From the IMG/VR virus record IMGVR_UViG_3300013126_000300, positions 1-21,032 of that record: 21,032 nt of DNA; one strand, 5' to 3'. The notes under the pieces were generated by a model. That model was not told where the DNA came from. It saw only the letters and a program-made list of their open reading frames with translations, and did no database searches. Shown piece by piece: positions 1,365 to 18,475 of the stretch (its first letter is position 1; each line of letters opens with the position of its first letter). The stretch comes from a virus. A program made the position numbers and the translations under genes.

Positions 1365-2051
1365 ATGAAACGATTAAGAGAAATATTGCAAATTGATGAA
1401 ATGGTGGCAAGCAATCCTATTAGAGCAAATGATCCAGATTTTAAAATTGAAGATGATAGAACAATAGATAATATTGATGGTGCTGATAAGTATGTTCAAT
1501 TGCTTCATCATGATAAAAAAGGCGCACCTCCAGTTGAAACAGAACATGGCCATCATATTTATTATTCTCATGAGCTCCTTTCGTCTGAAAAAAATATTGG
1601 TGTATTTAAGATGGCACTTGTAGATCCAAAAACAAAAAGCGTAGATTTTCATGTTCAAGGACCAACAATTCTTCATTCTCCTATTGGAAAAAATATTCCT
1701 GAATGGACCCTTGAAGAGTTGCACTTGAAAAGCAAAGACAAAGATAAAAGAGCAATTTCAAACTCCAACTCACATCCTTTATATAGAACTATTATGAGAC
1801 TCGGTGGAATATTAAATCACTATTCTATGTCAGATGGAGCAAAAAAAGCATACAAAAGATTTCATGCCAGATATAATCGTAATATTGTACATTGGGATCA
1901 AGATAGAAAAACAGGCCAATTATTACCTGCTAGTTCGCTTAGATTTAATAATCCTAGATATAATAGACAAAGAATGTATTCAGGAAAAGAGAGATTTTCA
2001 CCAGCGATGAGACGGGATTTTTTTAACAAATTACATCAAGGAACTGATTAA
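1365..2051 (+). CDS. Unrecognised basic phage protein between gp14 and gp15
   Basis: The protein has 228 residues. I chose the ATG at 1365, one base after the gp14 stop, because AGAGG at 1352-1356 fits it; an in-frame ATG at 1341 lies inside gp14 and has no such site. The N-terminus MKRLREILQIDE resembles the M-K-x-[F/L] capsid-targeting-like peptide seen in several other proteins of this window, with IDE as a loose [L/I]xE site. The rest is rich in His, Lys and Arg (for example VETEHGHHIYYSHELL and KRFHARYNRNIVHW), with a basic C-terminus. No known domain is recognised. The TAATG overlap with gp15 implies translational coupling, so it is expressed with the neck and tail genes and may be a virion or assembly protein. 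Confidence 0.75.
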   Translation: MKRLREILQIDEMVASNPIRANDPDFKIEDDRTIDNIDGADKYVQLLHHDKKGAPPVETEHGHHIYYSHELLSSEKNIGVFKMALVDPKTKSVDFHVQGPTILHSPIGKNIPEWTLEELHLKSKDKDKRAISNSNSHPLYRTIMRLGGILNHYSMSDGAKKAYKRFHARYNRNIVHWDQDRKTGQLLPASSLRFNNPRYNRQRMYSGKERFSPAMRRDFFNKLHQGTD

Positions 2052-2887
2052 TGTTTGGTCACGGACCATTTTATTTCTCAACAATCAGAAAAATGGTATC
2101 TACTTTTGGTACATGTTTTAATGAGCTTTATATCACACGAGACGATTCAGATGGTGATACACTTCAAACTATGAAAGTTCCATTAACATATGGACCTAAA
2201 GATAAACTCTTAACCCGTGTTGATGCTGACCCAAACATTGAAAGAAAAACATCAATCACTCTGCCAAGAATGTCTTTTGAAATGATCGGCCTTACCTATG
2301 ATAGCATCAGAAAACTAAACTCAGTCGGTAAAATTGCTAGAAAAGATGATTCAAATGCCAACAAACTAAAAAGACAATATAATCCTGTTCCTTATAATCT
2401 TGATTTTAATCTCTATATCTATGTCAAAAATCAAGAAGACGGTACAAAAATTATAGAACAAATTCTTCCGTTCTTTACTCCAGAATGGACACCAACAGTT
2501 AATATAATTCCTGAGATGAATATCGCAATGGATGTTCCTATCATTCTCAATTCTGTCGGATTTGAAGACGTTTATGAAGGAGCATTTACAGAACGCAGAG
2601 TCATAATTTGGACATTATCATTCACAATGAAGACATATTTTTATGGTCCTGTTGTATCAAAGCCTATAATCAAGGTATCAAACACACAATTTTATGTGCC
2701 TGCGTCTTTCAGTAATGCTGCGATATCAAATACGGATGTGATTGGTAGAGTTACAGTAACTCCTGGATTAGATGCGAATGGAAATCCAACAAGTAATAGT
2801 AGTATAAGTATACCATACAGTCAAATAGAAATAGATGATGATTTTGGATTTATAATTGATATTGAGGGACAAATTCTAACACAATGA
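2051..2887 (+). CDS. gp15: Tail terminator / sheath stabiliser gp15
   Basis: This is the gp15 family protein. In T4 it forms a hexameric ring at the head-proximal end of the tail, holding the last tube and sheath rings and docking to the neck. Diagnostic segments are near the N-terminus (STIRKMVSTFGTCFNELYIT) and at residues about 40-50 (MKVPLTYGPKDKLL). The core β-domain carries NPVPYNLDFNLYIYVKNQED and QILPFFTPEWTPTVNIIPEM. The length of 278 compares with 272 for T4 gp15. The C-terminal 60 residues are Asn/Ser-rich and less typical. The start overlaps the previous stop (TAATG), and the stop overlaps the gp16 start (ATGA). Confidence 0.93.
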   Translation: MFGHGPFYFSTIRKMVSTFGTCFNELYITRDDSDGDTLQTMKVPLTYGPKDKLLTRVDADPNIERKTSITLPRMSFEMIGLTYDSIRKLNSVGKIARKDDSNANKLKRQYNPVPYNLDFNLYIYVKNQEDGTKIIEQILPFFTPEWTPTVNIIPEMNIAMDVPIILNSVGFEDVYEGAFTERRVIIWTLSFTMKTYFYGPVVSKPIIKVSNTQFYVPASFSNAAISNTDVIGRVTVTPGLDANGNPTSNSSISIPYSQIEIDDDFGFIIDIEGQILTQ

Positions 2888-3282
2888 GTGATTCAAATAA
2901 TGATATTATTGCTCAATCTTTAAATTTGACTCCGTTAATACCAAATAAAAAAGAGATAAAAGCAATAATTAAAAATGACGAATATGAAACTGCCAAAGAA
3001 AACATGAATAATGTTATTCAAGTTGGAACTGATGCTCTATCTGAGTTAGCAACAATGGCACAACTGTCTCAAGATCCTAGAGTTTATCGTGTTATGACTG
3101 AATTATTATCTGCAATGGTAACAGCAAATAAAGAATTGGTTGAAATAAAAAAATTAAATCATGAAATTGAACAACAAAACAATGAAAATCAACCAAAGAC
3201 AATTAATCAAAATCTATTTGTAGGGTCAACCGCTGAATTGGCAAAAATGTTGGAAAATGTAAAAAATGCAAAAAACACTTAA
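2884..3282 (+). CDS. gp16: Small terminase subunit gp16
   Basis: The protein has 132 residues. The position between gp15 and gp17 and the segments ALSELATMAQLSQDPRVYRV, MTELLSAMVTANKELVEIKK and FVGSTAELAKMLENV are those of T4-type gp16. In T4, gp16 forms a multimeric ring that recognises DNA and stimulates gp17 ATPase and cutting. The middle (roughly residues 45-100) reads as long helices able to form the central coiled-coil. The protein is somewhat shorter than T4 gp16 (164). It overlaps gp15 by ATGA and the next gene by 17 bases, so the block is translated as a coupled unit. Confidence 0.88.
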   Translation: MSDSNNDIIAQSLNLTPLIPNKKEIKAIIKNDEYETAKENMNNVIQVGTDALSELATMAQLSQDPRVYRVMTELLSAMVTANKELVEIKKLNHEIEQQNNENQPKTINQNLFVGSTAELAKMLENVKNAKNT

Positions 3283-3490
3283 ACAAATTTTAACAAAGCG
3301 TGTGTATACACCAGAACAACTAGCTAAAAAGCACAATGTTGACTTGCAGTCAATTATGCAGCAACTTGAAATGGGTATTGAAGTAGAAAAAGAACACACC
3401 AAACATAAAACCATTGCGAGACAAATAGCATTGGCTCACCTTGCAGAGTTTCCTGACTATTATTCAAGACTAAAAAAGATAGAAAAATGA
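3266..3490 (+). CDS. Small DUF5661-like protein
   Basis: The protein has 74 residues. The pattern YTPEQLAKKHNVDL, then LEMGIEVEKEHT, then ARQIALAHLAEFPDYYSRL matches a small family that I know as DUF5661, common in phages and uncharacterised. The conserved parts are an LAxKH[N/G]V helix, an EHT motif and an A-x-x-I-A-x-x-H-L-x-E-x-P-D-Y-Y helix. Its N-terminus MQKTLKQIL again resembles the capsid-targeting-like peptide, but no [L/I]xE cleavage site follows. It overlaps the gp16 end by 17 bases and the next gene by ATGA. In T4, gp16 and gp17 are adjacent, so this gene is an insertion in the terminase operon. The function is unknown. Confidence 0.8.
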   Translation: MQKTLKQILTKRVYTPEQLAKKHNVDLQSIMQQLEMGIEVEKEHTKHKTIARQIALAHLAEFPDYYSRLKKIEK

Positions 3491-4080
3491 AATCTTTTTT
3501 ACAGTTTCTAGACGAAGCAATTGTTGATAATATGTCTGATCAAGACATTATAGGGTTAATTCAACACAGAGCAAAAAATCCGAACGTTTCTCAAAAACCA
3601 TATGCAAATCTTGCTGGGTATACTTCAGAACAATTGTTCAGCAAAAACGGAATATTCAACCATCCAAGAACACGGCAACTAGCCAAAGACAACAACTTAG
3701 AATTGCCTTCTAATAATACTCTTATTACTACACATGAAACAAGAATAAAAAAACTAGGTGGTGTTGAAGGAATAACCAAACAAAGAAAACAAGGTAAATC
3801 AGAACACAATATTTTTGGTAAAAATAACATGAGTACTGCCAGTTACTTTGATTCGACGTATAAGAACCATCCTTCCTATCATCCTCCTAATAAACGTCAA
3901 ATGATTCCAATAGACAACAAAACAAAACAAAGTATTATTGATCATCATAATCAAGGATTGAGTTTTGGGGAAAATGCAAAGAAGCATAAAGTAACAAGAA
4001 GTGGGGTTGCTGGAATTATTAGTAGAGCCAGACGACAAGGGTTAATTAAAATAAACTCAAAACAAAGATCAAATGGATAA
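3487..4080 (+). CDS. Putative capsid-targeted DNA-binding protein with GcrA-like HTH
   Basis: The protein has 197 residues. It begins MKSFLQFLDEAIVD, which closely resembles the T4 internal-protein targeting peptide (MKTYQEFIAEA). It contains LDE followed by A, an ideal gp21 cleavage site. Residues about 143-186 (KTKQSIIDHHNQGLSFGENA, then KKHKVTRSGVAGIISRARRQ) look like a helix-turn-helix. They resemble GcrA, the alphaproteobacterial sigma70 cofactor, whose helix contains the pattern VTRNAVIGK...GL. The middle is basic and unrecognised. The gene overlaps its neighbours by 4 bases (left) and 8 bases (right, gp17), and is absent at this place in T4. Inference: a protein packed in the head, trimmed by gp21, able to bind DNA, and possibly delivered into the host. 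It could instead be a free endonuclease-type insertion with a DNA-binding tail, but no nuclease motif is visible. Confidence 0.72.
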   Translation: MKSFLQFLDEAIVDNMSDQDIIGLIQHRAKNPNVSQKPYANLAGYTSEQLFSKNGIFNHPRTRQLAKDNNLELPSNNTLITTHETRIKKLGGVEGITKQRKQGKSEHNIFGKNNMSTASYFDSTYKNHPSYHPPNKRQMIPIDNKTKQSIIDHHNQGLSFGENAKKHKVTRSGVAGIISRARRQGLIKINSKQRSNG

Positions 4081-5710
4081 TATATCAGGATATCGCGGTT
4101 CAAATACTCTTAAAAAAGCAAATGTTCCTATTGAATGGAGCACATCTCTCCTTCAAGAATTTTTAAAATGCTCTCAAGATCCAATATATTTTGCTGAATC
4201 TTATATGAAGATCGTGAATGTTGATAAAGGACTTATCACGATTCCACTCTATGATTATCAAAAAGAAATCATTGATACAGCCAAAAATGAAAGATATACA
4301 GTCGCAGAATGTTCTCGTCAGTCAGGAAAAACAACTGCTATTACAGTATTCGTATTATGGTATATCATTTTTCACCCTAATAAGACAGTAGCAATTCTTG
4401 CTAATAAAGGTGATACAGCAAGAGAAATACTGGGCAGAATACAGCTTGCGTATGAACACTTACCTAACTGGCTTCAACAAGGAGTCGTGGAATGGAATAA
4501 AGGCTCGTTTGTGCTTGAAAATGGTTCAAGGGTACTGGCCGCTGCTACCTCCTCAAATAACATTCGTGGATTCGCAATTAATGTTTGTATCATTGATGAG
4601 GCGGCATTTGTTGAAAATTGGAATGAATTCTTTACCTCAGTATTTCCAACAATATCATCTGGCCAATCTACAAAACTCATTCTTATCTCTACCGTCAATG
4701 GTCTAAATCATTTTTATAAAATCACATCACTTGCCAGACAAGGTAAAAACGGATACAAAATTATTTCTGTTCCGTGGAATAGTGTTCCAAACAGAGATGA
4801 TAAGTGGAAAGAACAAACCCTTGCGGCAATGAATTATGATTATGATAAATTTGCTCAAGAATTTGAAAATGAATATGTTGGATCTTCAGGAACTCTCATC
4901 GCAGGCTGGAAATTAAAAGAATTAGTTCCACAGACTCCAATCCAAGAACATAGCAGTATAACGCAATATATCAAACCAGACAAAAAAAGAGTTTATGTTG
5001 GGACAGCAGACGTATCAAGAGGAAAAGGACTAGATTACTCAACACTTCAAATTATTGATGTGACAGAAATGCCATACCAACAAGTTCTCTCGTTTAGAGA
5101 TAATATGATCACACCAGGAGATTTTGCCGAAATTATCAATAGAATTGGAAGACAATATAACAATGCGGCCATATTAATAGAAATCAATGATATAGGTCAG
5201 CAAGTTGCTGAGACACTATACTTTGATTATGAATATGAGAATATGTTGTTCACAGAATCTGCAGGCAAACAAGGCAAAAAAATTACTCAAAGTTATAAGT
5301 CTGTAAGTACAGATAGAGGTATTAGAACAACAAAAACGGTTAAATCTGTTGGATGTTCAATGCTTAAACTTTTGATTGAGCAAAATCAATTAATGATTCA
5401 TGATTTTAATACAATCAATGAATTATCTACATTTTCAAAAAAAGGCAACTCATATGAAGCGGAGATTGGTTGCCATGATGACCTTGTTATTTGCTTGATT
5501 CTATTTGCTTGGTTAACTGAGCAATTATATTTCAAAGATTTGACTGATATTAATACACTTATCAAATTGAAAGAAAAAAGTGCTGAAGAGATTGAGAATG
5601 ATTTATTACCATTTGGATATATTGATGATGGTAGATCAGAATACATTGACGACATAACAAAAAATCCAAATGAATGGATATTATCAGACAATCCTATCTA
5701 TAAAATATAA
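4073..5710 (+). CDS. gp17: Large terminase subunit gp17
   Basis: This 545-residue protein is the packaging motor ATPase plus nuclease, which docks on the portal and cuts concatemeric DNA. The ATPase domain shows Walker A SRQSGKTT (residues 81-88), Walker B CIIDEA (172-177) with catalytic Glu176, and coupling motif ISTVNG (205-210). The C-terminal RNase H-fold nuclease has the three acidic clusters TADVSRG (Asp313), ILIEIND (Glu370) and CHDDLV (Asp469/470). T4 gp17 is 610 residues; the difference lies mainly at the ends. The start at 4073 overlaps the previous gene by 8 bases and lacks a strong ribosome-binding site, consistent with coupled translation. There is no intein here, although gp17 is a common intein site in related phages. 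Confidence 0.97.
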   Translation: MDNISGYRGSNTLKKANVPIEWSTSLLQEFLKCSQDPIYFAESYMKIVNVDKGLITIPLYDYQKEIIDTAKNERYTVAECSRQSGKTTAITVFVLWYIIFHPNKTVAILANKGDTAREILGRIQLAYEHLPNWLQQGVVEWNKGSFVLENGSRVLAAATSSNNIRGFAINVCIIDEAAFVENWNEFFTSVFPTISSGQSTKLILISTVNGLNHFYKITSLARQGKNGYKIISVPWNSVPNRDDKWKEQTLAAMNYDYDKFAQEFENEYVGSSGTLIAGWKLKELVPQTPIQEHSSITQYIKPDKKRVYVGTADVSRGKGLDYSTLQIIDVTEMPYQQVLSFRDNMITPGDFAEIINRIGRQYNNAAILIEINDIGQQVAETLYFDYEYENMLFTESAGKQGKKITQSYKSVSTDRGIRTTKTVKSVGCSMLKLLIEQNQLMIHDFNTINELSTFSKKGNSYEAEIGCHDDLVICLILFAWLTEQLYFKDLTDINTLIKLKEKSAEEIENDLLPFGYIDDGRSEYIDDITKNPNEWILSDNPIYKI

Positions 5711-9057: not shown

Positions 9058-11760
9058 ATGGCAAAAGGTGAAAATACAAACGGATGGAATCTTTTTGGAT
9101 TCTCTTTTAAAAGAAAAGAAGAAAAAGAAACCATCAAATCTTTCACTCCAGAAATTAAAGATGATGGTGCCGTCGTCGTATCAGCTGGCGGCACCTTTGG
9201 TACATTCATTGATTTAGATGGTACAGTTAGAACAGAGGCAGAACTTGTATCAAGATATCGTGAGATGTCCATTCAACCAGAAATTGATAAAGCTGTCAAT
9301 GAAGTAATCAATGATGCTATTGTCAATGAAGAAGGTAAAGATTCTGTAGAAATTATTCTAGATGATTTGCCTGTGAAAGACAATCTGAAGAAAATAATCA
9401 CACAAGAATTTAAAAATATTTTGGATCTGTTAGATTTCAAACAAGATTCTTATGATATTTTTAAAAGATGGTATATTGACGGCAGATGCTACTATCATGT
9501 TATCATTGATGAAAAAGTGCCACAAGAAGGCATTAAAGAATTAAGATATATTGACCCCAGAACAATCCGAAAAGTAAGAGAAGTCTCTAAAGCAAGAGAT
9601 AAATTTACTGATGCGACAATTCAACGCACAAAGCAAGAATATTATATCTATAATGAACGAGGACTGAATTATGGATCAAAAGTTTTTTCTAATTTAGGAA
9701 CTACTGGATTAAAAATTCAGGTTGATTCTATTATTCAAGTCGTGTCTGGATTGATGGATTCAAATAATAAGATGGTTTTATCATATCTTCATCCAGGAAT
9801 AAAGCCATTAAATCAATTAAGATCATTAGAAGATGCGTCACTAATCTATCATTTATCTCGTGCTCCTGAGAGAAGAATTTTTTATCTTGATGTTGGAAAT
9901 TTGCCTAAGATGAAGGCAGAACAGTATGTTCGGGATATGATGGTCAGGTATAAAAACAAGTTAGCTTATAATGCGGATACTGGTGAGATCCGCGATGATA
10001 GAAAATTCATGTGTTATGCCCTAGACACTAAAATTCCTCTGTTGGATGGAAGAACACTTGAGCTTCAAGATTTAATCACGGAATACAAGCAAGGCAAATT
10101 GAATTGGGTATATTCTTGTGATCCAGTAACTGGTAAATTTGTTCCTGGTCCTGTCTCTTGGGCAGGCATTACTAAAAAGGATGCTCGTGTTGTGAGAGTT
10201 ACATTTGATAATGGCAAGAGCGTTGTTTGTACACCAGACCATAAGTTTCCTGTATGGGGTAAAGGACTGGTAGAAGCACAACATCTTGTTGGTGAATCTA
10301 TTATACCAGGATATAGACGCCAAGAAAAATTGAATTCATCAAGCAAAGAATATGAACAGATGTATCAAAACGAAACAGGAACATGGGAATTTACTCATAG
10401 ACTGGTTTCACGCTGGAAAGATGAAAATAATATAACAGAGCAGTTTTTATATGAAACCGATACGATAGATAGACGTGTTGTTCATCATAAAGATTTTAAT
10501 AGACTAAACAATGCTCCTGACAATTTGGTTATAATGGACTATGATGACCATATTAATTATCATTCAGCAATAGTTTCTGATAGAAATCGTGATAAATGGG
10601 CAACAGATAAACATATAAGAAATAAAAATCTTAATATAATTACAAGAAAAGACCTCAATAGAATTGTAAAACTTCTTGGATTCAAATCTTGGAATGATTT
10701 CAAAAATGGCATAGTTATTGATGATAAAAGATATTCAAGCTATAATCAAGCAATAAAAAATCTTGATGTTACAACCGTCAGGCATTCTCTCAACTCTGAA
10801 CTATCTTATCGTGGATCAGAGAATTGGAAGAAAAAATTGTCTGATGCCAGAAAAGGCAAAGCATCAATCTCAAAGACATGGAAAGTCTTTAAGCCAGATG
10901 GTCAAATTGAAATTGTTGAAAATCTAAATAAATATGCGAGAGATAATAATCTCAGTGTATCAAATATGAGAAATTCATCATCAAAGGGATATAAAGCAGA
11001 AGTTTTAAAAAATCATAAAGCAGTTTCTGTTGAGTGGTTAGATGAAAACATTGATGTCGGATGTATTACTGTTGATTTAGAAGAAACATATCATAGCCAT
11101 CATACATATCTTTTGGATATTGGTGTGTATACAAAAAATACAATGTTGGAAGACTACTGGTTTCCAAGACGAGAAGGAGGTAGAGCAACAGAAGTCTCTA
11201 TTCTTCAAGGAGGAACAGCACTTCCTCAATTGCTTCAATCAGTAGAATATTTTCAAGATAGATTATACAGATCCCTTCAAGTCCCTAAATCAAGAATGAA
11301 TCCTGATACTGTATATACATTAGGCAGAGCAACTGAAATCAGTAGAGATGAATTAAATTTTGCTAAATTTATTGATAGAATCAGAGGCAAATTTTCATTC
11401 TTATTTTTAAAAGCATTGGAAAAACAATTAGTTCTCAAAGGAATTGCGACTCCTGAAGACTGGGAACAAATCAAAAAATTTATTAGATTTAGATACCTGA
11501 GAGATAACTATTTTACAGAATTAAAAGATATGGAAATTCTTGGAGAGAGACTAAATAGATTAACACAAATCAGTATGTATGCTGGAAAGTATTATTCAAA
11601 TACTTGGATTAGAAAGAATATTTTGAGACATACTGATGAAGATATTTTGAAAATGGATGAACAGATAGCACAAGAATCTCAGATGATACAGTATAATCCA
11701 GAATTATTACAGCAACAAGGACAACCAGAAGGACAGGAGAAAAAAGATGAATCCAAGTGA
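9058..11760 (+). CDS. gp20: Portal protein gp20 interrupted by an in-frame intein
   Basis: The portal forms the dodecameric head vertex ring that nucleates prohead assembly and is the channel for packaging. The extein parts are residues 1-318 (RYREMSIQPEIDKAVNEVI, RRIFYLDVGNLPKMKAEQYV, NADTGEIRDDRKFM) and 695-900 (TMLEDYWFPRREGGRATEVS, QVPKSRMNPD). Removing the 376-residue intein (319-694) leaves 524 residues, the size of T4 gp20. The junction KFM/TMLEDYW is contiguous in known gp20 proteins, which places the insert exactly. GGA at about 9047 serves as ribosome-binding site. The end overlaps gp67 by 14 bases. The C-terminus is Gln-rich. Splicing must occur for a working portal. Confidence 0.97.
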   Translation: MAKGENTNGWNLFGFSFKRKEEKETIKSFTPEIKDDGAVVVSAGGTFGTFIDLDGTVRTEAELVSRYREMSIQPEIDKAVNEVINDAIVNEEGKDSVEIILDDLPVKDNLKKIITQEFKNILDLLDFKQDSYDIFKRWYIDGRCYYHVIIDEKVPQEGIKELRYIDPRTIRKVREVSKARDKFTDATIQRTKQEYYIYNERGLNYGSKVFSNLGTTGLKIQVDSIIQVVSGLMDSNNKMVLSYLHPGIKPLNQLRSLEDASLIYHLSRAPERRIFYLDVGNLPKMKAEQYVRDMMVRYKNKLAYNADTGEIRDDRKFMCYALDTKIPLLDGRTLELQDLITEYKQGKLNWVYSCDPVTGKFVPGPVSWAGITKKDARVVRVTFDNGKSVVCTPDHKFPVWGKGLVEAQHLVGESIIPGYRRQEKLNSSSKEYEQMYQNETGTWEFTHRLVSRWKDENNITEQFLYETDTIDRRVVHHKDFNRLNNAPDNLVIMDYDDHINYHSAIVSDRNRDKWATDKHIRNKNLNIITRKDLNRIVKLLGFKSWNDFKNGIVIDDKRYSSYNQAIKNLDVTTVRHSLNSELSYRGSENWKKKLSDARKGKASISKTWKVFKPDGQIEIVENLNKYARDNNLSVSNMRNSSSKGYKAEVLKNHKAVSVEWLDENIDVGCITVDLEETYHSHHTYLLDIGVYTKNTMLEDYWFPRREGGRATEVSILQGGTALPQLLQSVEYFQDRLYRSLQVPKSRMNPDTVYTLGRATEISRDELNFAKFIDRIRGKFSFLFLKALEKQLVLKGIATPEDWEQIKKFIRFRYLRDNYFTELKDMEILGERLNRLTQISMYAGKYYSNTWIRKNILRHTDEDILKMDEQIAQESQMIQYNPELLQQQGQPEGQEKKDESK
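10012..11139 (+). mobile_element. Intein with HNH homing endonuclease in the portal gene
   Basis: The intein has 376 residues, from Cys1 (CYALDTKIPLLDGRTLEL, block A) to Asn376 (LLDIGVYTKN), with Thr as +1 residue. Block B is VVCTPDHKFPVWG with Thr74 and His77. The block F region is CITVDLEETYHSHHTYLLD at about 351-369. Between them lies an HNH module: RRVVHHKDFNRLNNAPDNL, then His180 and His184 (DDHINYH). It is followed by NUMOD-like DNA-binding segments (KKKLSDARKGKASISKTWKV and a PDGQIE...LNKYARDNNLSVS helix). Residues 375-376 are Lys-Asn instead of the usual His-Asn. The single long open frame and the conserved flanks show a protein element, not an intron. Removing it restores the portal precisely. 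Confidence 0.93.
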
Positions 11761-12826: not shown

Positions 12827-13474
12827 ATGTTACTTATCACAGAATTAATAGAGAATGTTCAATATATAACAGAAGCGTCTGAGAATGGAAAGAAGAATCT
12901 TTTCATTGAAGGACGGTTTATGGCATACGGTGAACCAAATAGAAACGGAAGAGTATATTCTGAGTCTGTTATGAGAAAAGAAGTTGATAGATATGTCAAA
13001 GAAAACGTGACACAAAAAAGAGCGTATGGAGAATTAAATCATCCATCTGGTCCACAAATTAATCTTGATAGAGTATCACATCTCATTGAGAAATTAGAAG
13101 TTCAATCTGGTGGTACTGTTTATGGCCGAGCAAAAGTGCTTGATACCCCTATGGGTAATATTGCGAAAGGTCTTATTGACGGTGGGGCAAATCTAGGAGT
13201 TTCTTCAAGAGGATTAGGTTCATTGAAAGAAGGCAAAAATGGTATTATGGAAGTTCAGAACGATTATAGACTTGTAACAGCAGGTGATATTGTTGCTGAT
13301 CCCTCTGCACCAGGAGCATTTGTTAAAGGTATATTAGAAAATGTTGAATGGGTCTATAATGAATCAAATGGAGAATGGATTCAAGAATCTAGACATAAAA
13401 TGAAAAAAATGAATAAAAGAGAACTAGAAGAATCTATGACTCAGTTCTTTGAAAAGTTTCTAAAAACGCTTTAA
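12827..13474 (+). CDS. gp21: Prohead maturation protease gp21
   Basis: The protein has 215 residues, against 212 for T4 gp21. It is the serine protease of herpes-assemblin type fold that digests scaffold and trims the capsid protein in the prohead. Visible motifs are GRFMAYGEPNRNGRVYSESV, the catalytic His72 in GELNHPSGPQ, the serine in LGVSSRG (Ser126 or 127) and DIVADPSAPGAFV. The N-terminus VQYITEASENGKKNL contains ITE/A, a consensus self-cleavage site at residues 14-17. AAGGAAAG precedes the ATG. The C-terminal 25 residues (MKKMNKRELEESMTQFFEKF) are helical. Confidence 0.96.
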   Translation: MLLITELIENVQYITEASENGKKNLFIEGRFMAYGEPNRNGRVYSESVMRKEVDRYVKENVTQKRAYGELNHPSGPQINLDRVSHLIEKLEVQSGGTVYGRAKVLDTPMGNIAKGLIDGGANLGVSSRGLGSLKEGKNGIMEVQNDYRLVTAGDIVADPSAPGAFVKGILENVEWVYNESNGEWIQESRHKMKKMNKRELEESMTQFFEKFLKTL

Positions 13475-16573: not shown

Positions 16574-16605
16574 AAAAGAGGCAGAGCAATCTGCCTCTTT
16601 TTTTT
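16574..16605 (+). terminator. Strong bidirectional terminator between convergent genes
   Basis: A perfect 12-bp stem (AAAAGAGGCAGA at 16574-16585 with TCTGCCTCTTTT at 16590-16601) has a GCAA tetraloop. T-runs flank it on the + strand side, and the A-run gives T on the - strand. It lies between the + strand papain-like gene and the stop of the - strand gene, so it can end both transcripts. Confidence 0.9.
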
Positions 16606-17509
16606 ATGGAAGATCAATTGTATTTGCTGCTCCAAAAATTAGATGAGTTTTGGCGGCAACTTTTGTCATCATACTATACATTGTATCATCTTGAATTTCA
16701 TCCCTTAACATATTCAATGATTTTTCTTTTGATGGGGCAAATAACATAGCATCCTTAGAATTTTTAATTAGAATGGCTGAATTCTGAATTTTCTTAGTAT
16801 TATAATGGGTAATTTTACTTTGATGCGTTGATCCTTTATTTTGTGAAAGTGTTAGAGTATGTTTGCCGTCAACTTCAGAAATATAAATGTTATTTGCGAC
16901 GACGATAGAATGGATGTTTTGATCATCAAAGATCAATTTTTTGGTCTTTTTTCCAAACAAAATATCACGTACCCAATCATCAAATATTGGCGTATTTGGC
17001 AATAGAAACTTTCGCCGAGCGACTTGAATTTTGGTTTTTGTGGAATTGAAGTCATATTCATTATTATCAAATAAGTAGTAAAGAATTCTGCTCAAAACTG
17101 AGATTGTGACTTTGTCTTCCGATGGGGAAAATCCAAATCCTAGATTGTTGTTCTTTTTAACATCAATCCTATAAACAATTTCATTTTTTCTACGAAACGA
17201 AATGTCCATTTTTTCATTTCCAGGATGATGTCTAATATCATCTACTTTAATTGGTCCGAAGTCTGGAATATGGAGTTTTAATTTTCCAGACTTTGAATTT
17301 GATGATATATAATTCATCATGTTATAAACAGTCATTCGCTCATGGTCTTCTGAAACTTTAAGATCAAGGTCTTCTTTTTGATATGTTTCTATATGATTGG
17401 GATCAAGGTATTCTTGTTTACCAACGATGTGAGTTTCAGTTTGATTAATAATTTTTACGACCGATCCGCGGTCACGGCCAAATTTGATAGTTGCATATTT
17501 CACAGTCAC
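16604..17509 (-). CDS. Unrecognised protein on the opposite strand, early-type gene
   Basis: The 301-residue product is the only gene of the window read leftward. It starts with GTG, 6 bases after AAAGGA. The N-terminus VKYATIKFGRDRGSVVKIIN, then THIVGKQEYLDPNHIETY, could be a small β-barrel. The rest is mixed and basic, with segments such as ISVLSRILYYLFDNNEYDF and FDDWVRDILFGKKTKKLIFD. No known domain, membrane segment or catalytic motif is recognised. It has its own sigma70-type promoter and shares the bidirectional terminator. Expression is therefore probably early, before the surrounding late genes. The function is unknown. Confidence 0.78.
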   Translation of the reverse strand: MTVKYATIKFGRDRGSVVKIINQTETHIVGKQEYLDPNHIETYQKEDLDLKVSEDHERMTVYNMMNYISSNSKSGKLKLHIPDFGPIKVDDIRHHPGNEKMDISFRRKNEIVYRIDVKKNNNLGFGFSPSEDKVTISVLSRILYYLFDNNEYDFNSTKTKIQVARRKFLLPNTPIFDDWVRDILFGKKTKKLIFDDQNIHSIVVANNIYISEVDGKHTLTLSQNKGSTHQSKITHYNTKKIQNSAILIKNSKDAMLFAPSKEKSLNMLRDEIQDDTMYSMMTKVAAKTHLIFGAANTIDLP

Positions 17510-17676: not shown

Positions 17677-17964
17677 ATGGCATATATCTATGTAATAGGT
17701 GAGCATCAGAAACCATATAAGATCGGAATTACGAATAATCCTGAAAGGCGATTAAAGAATTTACAAACTGGTCATCCAAAGAAATTATATATACATTATA
17801 CAGAAATGATATCTGATAATCAAGTTAGAGAACTTGAACAGATTATCCATGAAACAATTAGACATAAAAGAATGCATGGTGAATGGTTTGATATAGAATT
17901 AAATGAAGCTATAGCAGAAGTTAAATACGCAAGGATAAGATATTCGAATGATGAAATCATTTAA
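17677..17964 (+). CDS. GIY-YIG-fold protein of MUG113/T5orf172 type
   Basis: The protein has 95 residues. YIYVIGE at 3-9, YKIGITNNPERRLKNLQTG at 14-32 and MHGEWFDIEL at 67-76 are the hallmarks of the MUG113/T5orf172 branch of the GIY-YIG nuclease superfamily. Arg24/25 and Glu54 (RELEQIIHE) are in the places of the catalytic Arg and Glu. The protein consists of the nuclease-type core only, with no separate DNA-binding domain, so it is not an obvious homing endonuclease. It overlaps the next gene by 17 bases. A late promoter and a leader hairpin lie upstream. Confidence 0.82.
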   Translation: MAYIYVIGEHQKPYKIGITNNPERRLKNLQTGHPKKLYIHYTEMISDNQVRELEQIIHETIRHKRMHGEWFDIELNEAIAEVKYARIRYSNDEII

Positions 17965-18475
17965 GCAATTTATCAAAGAATCTAAAAGAAATAAATCTGA
18001 TCCGCATGAACGAGTTATAAGAGTATTGGCAACAATTGGTCGATTATCACATAAATATAGAGATCCTACTGATTGGGATGCTGATATCCATCCAAACAAA
18101 AAATCTATTATGTCTGGTAGAACATTTTATGGAGAATGTGACAGAGTTTCGCATTGCGTTGCAGACAGACTTAAAAGTAAATATCCTTCGGTTAAAGTTG
18201 TATATTCTAAAAAATTTGGGCAACCATATCCAGATGATCCAGACGGCAGTGACGGATTAACAGGACATTCTTGGGTAGAAATACCAGAAACAGGTCATTA
18301 TATTGATCCATCACATGATATGTTTAGAATACGCGGTTTTAGAACAAATATTCCAATACGAGGAGGAATTTTTCCTCAAAGCGCAATAAAAATAGGAAAG
18401 ATTGGTGATTCGTATTATAAAAGATATTATCTTTCCGGCAAAAAAGTGGATCCGTTATGGCCAAAGGGGAAATAA
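17948..18475 (+). CDS. Putative capsid-targeted protein with Cys/His/Asp (papain- or transglutaminase-like) motif
   Basis: The product has 175 residues from 17948, or 174 from the second Met at 17951. The N-terminus MKSFKQFIKES is nearly identical to that of the protein at 3487 and resembles T4 internal-protein targeting peptides. IKE is a loose gp21 site, but the next residue is S, not A/G. Counting from the second Met, the body shows YGECDRVSHCVADRL (Cys63), GHSWVEIPETGHYIDPSHDM (His106, Asp119). This Cys...HxW...DPS order is typical of papain-like and transglutaminase-like folds. There is no signal peptide. It overlaps the preceding gene by 17 bases and lies 3 bases before the next ATG. 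Inference: a head-packed enzyme delivered to the host. The alternative is a cytoplasmic late enzyme. Confidence 0.68.
   Translation: MMKSFKQFIKESKRNKSDPHERVIRVLATIGRLSHKYRDPTDWDADIHPNKKSIMSGRTFYGECDRVSHCVADRLKSKYPSVKVVYSKKFGQPYPDDPDGSDGLTGHSWVEIPETGHYIDPSHDMFRIRGFRTNIPIRGGIFPQSAIKIGKIGDSYYKRYYLSGKKVDPLWPKGK

Follow-up and report, generated by a model that had tools for sequence, protein, structure and literature searches.

The internal proteins (IPs) of bacteriophage T4 are diverse defence proteins whose sole common feature is a capsid-targeting leader, or CTS (PMC3012670). In IPI, IPII and IPIII the leader spans 10 residues, with functional positions 4, 7, 8 and 10 and an [LI]xE cleavage site; the mature proteins are basic, the phage encodes its own gp21-type protease, and the payloads vary with the leader alone conserved (PMC3012670, PMC9026906). 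Packing of IPIII requires only the first 10 residues, in which positions 4 and 7 hold the targeting information and positions 8 and 10 serve processing (review of Black's work; PMC9026906). Alt, another head-packed T4 protein, is an ADP-ribosyltransferase that acts on the host at once. Outside T4, few functions are known for head-packed proteins. As a rule about sequence, the leader can be recognized directly in genomes.

We analyzed the 21,032 nucleotides (the window) of a 21-kb IMG/VR record from a T4-like myovirus whose late genes run gp14-gp15-gp16-(slot)-gp17-gp18-gp19-gp20 (with intein)-gp21-gp22-gp23-(slot)-gp3-uvsY-uvsW, in which gp3 was assigned from position and weak tail-tube similarity. 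The closest isolates by gp17 are the Sinorhizobium phages phiN3 and phiM12 (55% identity). Features of the window are listed in Table 1. We read P0001, the product of the ORF at 3487-4080 between gp16 and gp17, as a basic T4 IP-type head protein that carries a CTS and a DNA-binding domain, at a probability of about 0.7. The traits of the T4 IPs named above recur here, but those proteins are encoded near gene e, whereas P0001, known from sequence alone, occupies the gp16-gp17 slot, carries a C-terminal helix-turn-helix (HTH) and has no detected sequence similarity to them. ORF136 of Synechococcus phage S-CREM2, also a T4-like phage, shares the slot, has a leader (MQTFSMFFSE; the protein begins MQTFSMFFSEDAGD) and a lysine-rich payload, and was detected in virions; the payload of ORF136 is unrelated in sequence and no HTH was recognized in it. 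With Alt, P0001 would share immediate action on the host as a packed protein, but Alt is an enzyme acting on RNA polymerase, with its own propeptides and no HTH.

Table 1. Features of the window that bear on P0001, its leader and its slot
Feature	Position	Strand	Details
P0001, candidate CTS-tagged internal head protein	3487..4080	+	197 aa; 187 aa and pI 10.3 after the predicted cleavage
P0001 capsid-targeting leader MKSFLQFLDE, residues 1-10	3487..3516	+	predicted gp21 cut between E10 and A11
P0001 C-terminal helix-turn-helix, ~residues 141-190, recognition helix VTRSGVAGIISRARRQGL	3907..4056	+	predicted structure and sequence searches
DUF5661 ORF, start MQKTLKQILTKR, weaker leader	3266..3490	+	basic, pI 9.6; probable second cargo of gp16-gp17 slot
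gp16, small terminase, upstream border of slot	2884..3282	+	profile searches
gp17, large terminase, downstream border of slot	4073..5710	+	profile searches
gp21, prohead protease, expected leader cutter	12827..13474	+	Peptidase_S77 E=2e-34; second profile search E=3e-73
Second strict leader ORF MKSFKQFIKESKRN, gp23-gp3 slot	17951..18475	+	174 aa; pI 9.7
Basic ORF, weaker leader-like start MKRLREILQIDEM, possible further cargo	1365..2051	+	pI 9.6
gp20, portal, with in-frame intein, ~residues 327-674	9058-11760		Intein_splicing E=1e-7; weak HNH match

The N-terminus of P0001 is certain, because its reading frame, open from 3457, has no start codon before 3487, its start shares 4 bases (ATGA) with the upstream DUF5661 ORF (stop at 3490), and its last 8 bases are also the first of gp17 (start at 4073). 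The initial annotation had the protein beginning MKSFLQFLDEAIVD, and this start, the length and the strand were all confirmed; the peptide MKTYQEFIAEA that it gave as the start of T4 internal proteins is right for ipII and ipIII. At the positions defined in IPIII, P0001 has F4 and F7 (targeting) and L8 and E10 (processing), so that the proposed LDE/A cleavage site agrees with the mutationally defined processing positions. The motif [LI]xE occurs once in P0001, at residues 8-10, and its absence from the mature part is not significant as a sign of protease resistance (39% of shuffles also had none). A gp21-type prohead protease gene (Peptidase_S77) is present in the same phage. A tblastn search with a 20-residue leader query, too short for this purpose, gave no match.

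We compared the occurrence of the leader with chance using the strict motif MK[ST][FY]xxF[IL]xE and degenerate DNA patterns. In T4, a search of 99 kb with the strict motif picked out ipII, ipIII and 61.1 only, and the degenerate DNA motif returned the same three from the whole T4 genome, with 0 matches for a reversed control. Five distinct start-codon peptides fit the motif across T4-like loci, against a mean of 0.0035 (maximum 2) in 2000 position permutations. In the viral collection, a first degenerate DNA pattern fell on the start of an ORF of at least 40 codons in 121 of 125 cases among the matches listed. A second pattern, searched in full against 2.9 million viral contigs, matched 73 stretches; an ORF begins at 72 of these, and a permuted pattern of equal degeneracy matched 0.

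The tagged payloads are diverse and basic. Among the matches listed for the first pattern they group into 43 clusters; cytidylyltransferase/NMNAT-like proteins make up a 49-member cluster among the matches listed, where DUF5661, GNAT acetyltransferase, AAA/zeta-toxin-like kinase and lytic-transglycosylase (DPBB) domains are also found. Some tagged proteins belong to PHROGs families already labelled 'internal virion protein' or 'internal head protein'. The median pI of the payloads is 9.6, and 87% exceed 8.5, compared with 22-28% of untagged ORFs.

Among the matches listed, tagged ORFs that adjoin T4-like head genes are on the same strand as these, mostly between gp16 and gp17, gp23 and gp3, or gp3 and uvsW, and the window holds strict tagged ORFs in the first two of these slots. 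In its nearest relatives (terminase 68-77% identical) the gp16-gp17 slot is kept and the cargo exchanged: loci L003 and L005 encode a 136-aa protein (MKSFFNFILEM), L004 one of 179 aa (MKSFKQYLYEK) and L008 one of 192 aa (MKTFKQFLAEM), while L007 and L008 encode a 329-aa DUF5661 protein (MKTFKQFVSSH); in L006 the slot has an ORF without a tag. The slot does not always hold cargo: in phiM12 and phiN3 (L082 3399-3989, L083 3402-3986) the ATPase region of the terminase occurs a second time, in truncated form, between gp16 and gp17, and the phiM12 copy has no leader. DUF5661-like ORFs with a clear leader occur in L204 and L242 (MKTFSQFLLEATDP...) and also in L249, and in L007 DUF5661 forms the C-terminus of a leader-like protein in the gp16-gp17 slot. 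Such sequences give DUF5661 the appearance of a head-cargo family; the literature searched held no paper on it. DUF5661 proteins were also seen repeatedly adjoining terminase genes.

The position between the terminase genes and the strongly basic character of P0001 (pI 10.3) would also suit a protein that binds DNA at the terminase to help package or condense it; the leader would then be for scaffold docking, and delivery would have no function. We consider this rather unlikely: relatives fill the slot with unrelated proteins, which argues that its content is not a packaging essential, and several tagged payloads are enzymes (cytidylyltransferase/NMNAT, SAM lyase).

In the T4-like cyanophage S-CREM2, the leader is associated with virion proteins. 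Its published proteome (mass spectrometry; PMC10665884, Table 3) contains both ORFs that lie between the terminase genes. With a pattern set before the rest of the genome was inspected, all three matching ORFs were virion-detected (136; 154, a cytidylyltransferase; and 6, a SAM hydrolase; P=0.013). Applying the position 4/7/8/10 rule to the 217 annotated ORFs selected ORFs 6, 13, 14, 136 and 154, 5/5 of which were in the virion vs 47/212 of the others (Fisher P=6.8e-4, an optimistic value, since ORFs 13 and 14 were already known when the rule was framed). In this phage, the sole full-proteome T4-like cyanophage tested genome-wide, the leader thus found five virion proteins with no false positive, among them the SAM hydrolase, a kinase and the cytidylyltransferase, whose presence the authors had reported without a targeting sequence. 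Those authors suggested that these virion enzymes may be encapsulated (PMC10665884), and targeting is not mentioned in their paper according to a text search. Virions of cyanophages repeatedly contain NMNAT- or cytidylyltransferase-like proteins (PMC9602691, PMC3037559); no paper tying the CTS to cyanophage virion enzymes was found in the literature searched. Two ORFs of S-SCSM1 bear the pattern: its NMNAT has a virion-protein annotation and was reported from the proteome (PMC9602691); the second, a 106-aa ORF just before gp17, lacks such an annotation and counts against our reading of P0001, as does T4 61.1, which has the motif but is not a known virion protein. The proposal that a T4-type CTS directs head packing has good support from the motif positions, the slot with its swapped payloads and the virion proteome of a T4-like relative, from which we infer that P0001 itself is packed.

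Behind the leader, P0001 is strongly basic (residues 11-197, pI 10.28; net charge of the full protein +16, K+R minus D+E), with no cysteine and no tryptophan. The helix-turn-helix noticed at its C-terminus was recovered by AlphaFold2 without an alignment as a three-helix HTH (helices 144-155, 160-167 and 171-183; pLDDT ~77-89 over 141-190), with the recognition-helix stretch at residues 169-186; confidence is mostly low over residues 11-140. The top Foldseek hits of the model were mostly DNA-binding HTH domains, none at E<=0.001; over the whole model no match is significant, confident modelling being limited to the HTH. The best Pfam matches of the HTH are HTH_SB and HTH_28, all below curated cut-offs, and the best PDB chain match is the Sleeping Beauty HTH (E=0.056). 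That P0001 binds DNA is likely. The payload is an orphan: searches of viral and genome contigs, phages and plasmids found no relatives of residues 11-140, phages gave only a 39-aa HTH match and plasmids a weak match (E=0.8), and no relative was found within seven of the closest contigs.

The transposase family HTH_SB as best Pfam match, together with an intein and a GIY-YIG-family ORF in the window, would fit a remnant or free-standing homing-type endonuclease, or a transposase-derived DNA-binding protein, whose leader match is coincidental. Homing genes are frequent in T4-like phages. Such an origin is nonetheless improbable: no nuclease or transposase catalytic domain (HNH, GIY-YIG, LAGLIDADG, DDE) was found in P0001 with Pfam, NCBIfam or PHROGs, a start-codon leader with all four functional positions lies far above chance, and the overlaps with both neighbours point to an integrated operon gene.

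The initial annotation likened the HTH to GcrA, a regulator defined by an HTH at the N-terminus and, at the C-terminus, a sigma-interacting domain with Cys motifs. Its quotation of the GcrA recognition helix was correct, solved GcrA having GVTRNAVIGKVHRLGL, and the letter pattern VTR..V.G....R....GL of that helix occurs in both proteins. A local likeness stands, at 18/39 identical positions in BLAST (46% over 39 aa) to the HTH of the GcrA of phage Pam5, but profile and PDB searches placed Tc1-type and generic HTHs first; membership of the GcrA family does not stand. The profile PF07750 gave no match at E<=1 with whole P0001 or at E<=10 with the HTH alone, while the control, Pam5 GcrA, scored 7e-16. 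Alignment with the solved GcrA chains 7ye1 and 5yix confined the likeness to the HTH, and a search of genome contigs for GcrA relatives from which to build a GcrA HTH profile found none. P0001 was rejected as a GcrA, its HTH being at the wrong end (141-190 of 197) and the CxWP/FCG/YC sigma-interacting domain missing.

That P0001 is a phage-encoded GcrA which works together with host sigma70 on methylated GANTC sites is accordingly very improbable: the local HTH similarity speaks for it, but PF07750 is absent, the domain order is reversed, there is no Cys-rich sigma-interacting domain and indeed no cysteine, and GANTC in the window is only mildly below expectation (77 vs ~96), not the marked depletion that would hint at GcrA/CcrM. 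The statement that P0001 works like GcrA is unsupported. Another reading makes P0001 a packed transcription factor that, through its HTH, would act on promoters of the host or the phage and change transcription ahead of phage gene expression; this is unlikely, yet clearly less so than a phage GcrA. The HTH likeness to a GcrA regulator and the precedent of Alt, head-packed too and acting on host RNA polymerase (PMC9026906), favour it, but P0001 has no recognizable sigma- or polymerase-binding domain and profile searches liken its HTH to Tc1-type and generic HTHs.

Because it joins a T4-type head address tag to a DNA-gripping domain, P0001 probably enters the head together with the viral DNA and reaches the host cell with it. 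In the pathway that we infer, the CTS would dock P0001 onto the prohead core and the gp21 protease would cut it after E10, leaving a strongly basic 187-residue protein; this mature form would remain among the packaged DNA, be ejected with the genome and enter the cell at the next infection, where the C-terminal HTH would give it DNA binding. By analogy with T4 IPI*, its most likely role would be to protect or manage the genome as it enters the cell (anti-restriction or another form of counter-defence), and we take DNA protection and counter-defence as the default since the T4 internal proteins are a diverse defence set with the CTS alone in common. Altering early transcription would be the next most likely role. 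On a bolder and doubtful extension, a T4-like phage would inject a CTS-packed, sequence-specific regulator that resets host or phage transcription before phage gene expression, from one of several cargo-swapping late-operon slots.

The opinion that no system of this form has been described is partly wrong. Diverse internal proteins with a CTS are what the T4 IP system is known for (PMC3012670, PMC9026906), and the principle of delivery is already known from T4; a CTS-tagged HTH payload, by comparison, did not appear in the literature searched. As far as the searched papers show, two elements are new: this HTH payload, and the finding that uncultured T4-like phages widely place the tag in fixed slots among their late genes, a rule that an independent proteome supports. 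Such fixed slots provide a route to delivered anti-defence and takeover proteins in uncultured phages, and P0001 extends the list of tagged cargo by a predicted DNA-binding payload.

Several further observations concern tagged or neighbouring ORFs. T4 gene 61.1 (L286 18966-19130, 54 aa) starts MKTFKEFIKEDMVAGDSGG, a full CTS, and judging by its start T4 may have in it an internal protein that has been overlooked. Starts of the YRG/YHGT type are seen in leader-tagged ORFs of L087 (13335-13676), L200 (1211-1858), L248 (1085-1591) and L181 (3736); none of these ORFs has a Pfam match, and inspection by eye suggests ADP-ribosyltransferase folds, which would recall T4 Alt. In S-CREM2, the adjacent virion ORFs 12-15 (L378, 7704-13331, minus strand) comprise a Cas9-like annotation, a hypothetical protein, an APH-like kinase and a further hypothetical protein, and look like a cargo operon; ORFs 13 and 14 have leaders, and ORF 12 has a leader-like FASFMAEAAVD ~20 residues in, so that its start was perhaps wrongly called.

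In the window, the tagged orphan ORF of the gp23-gp3 slot has a Cys...GHSWVE...DPSHD layout that by eye recalls a papain- or transglutaminase-like triad, its single-sequence model being poor. Also between gp23 and gp3 are a 301-aa ORF without a family (16604-17509, minus strand), one of few long minus-strand ORFs in the window, and a T5orf172/GIY-YIG-like ORF (17677-17964, plus strand).
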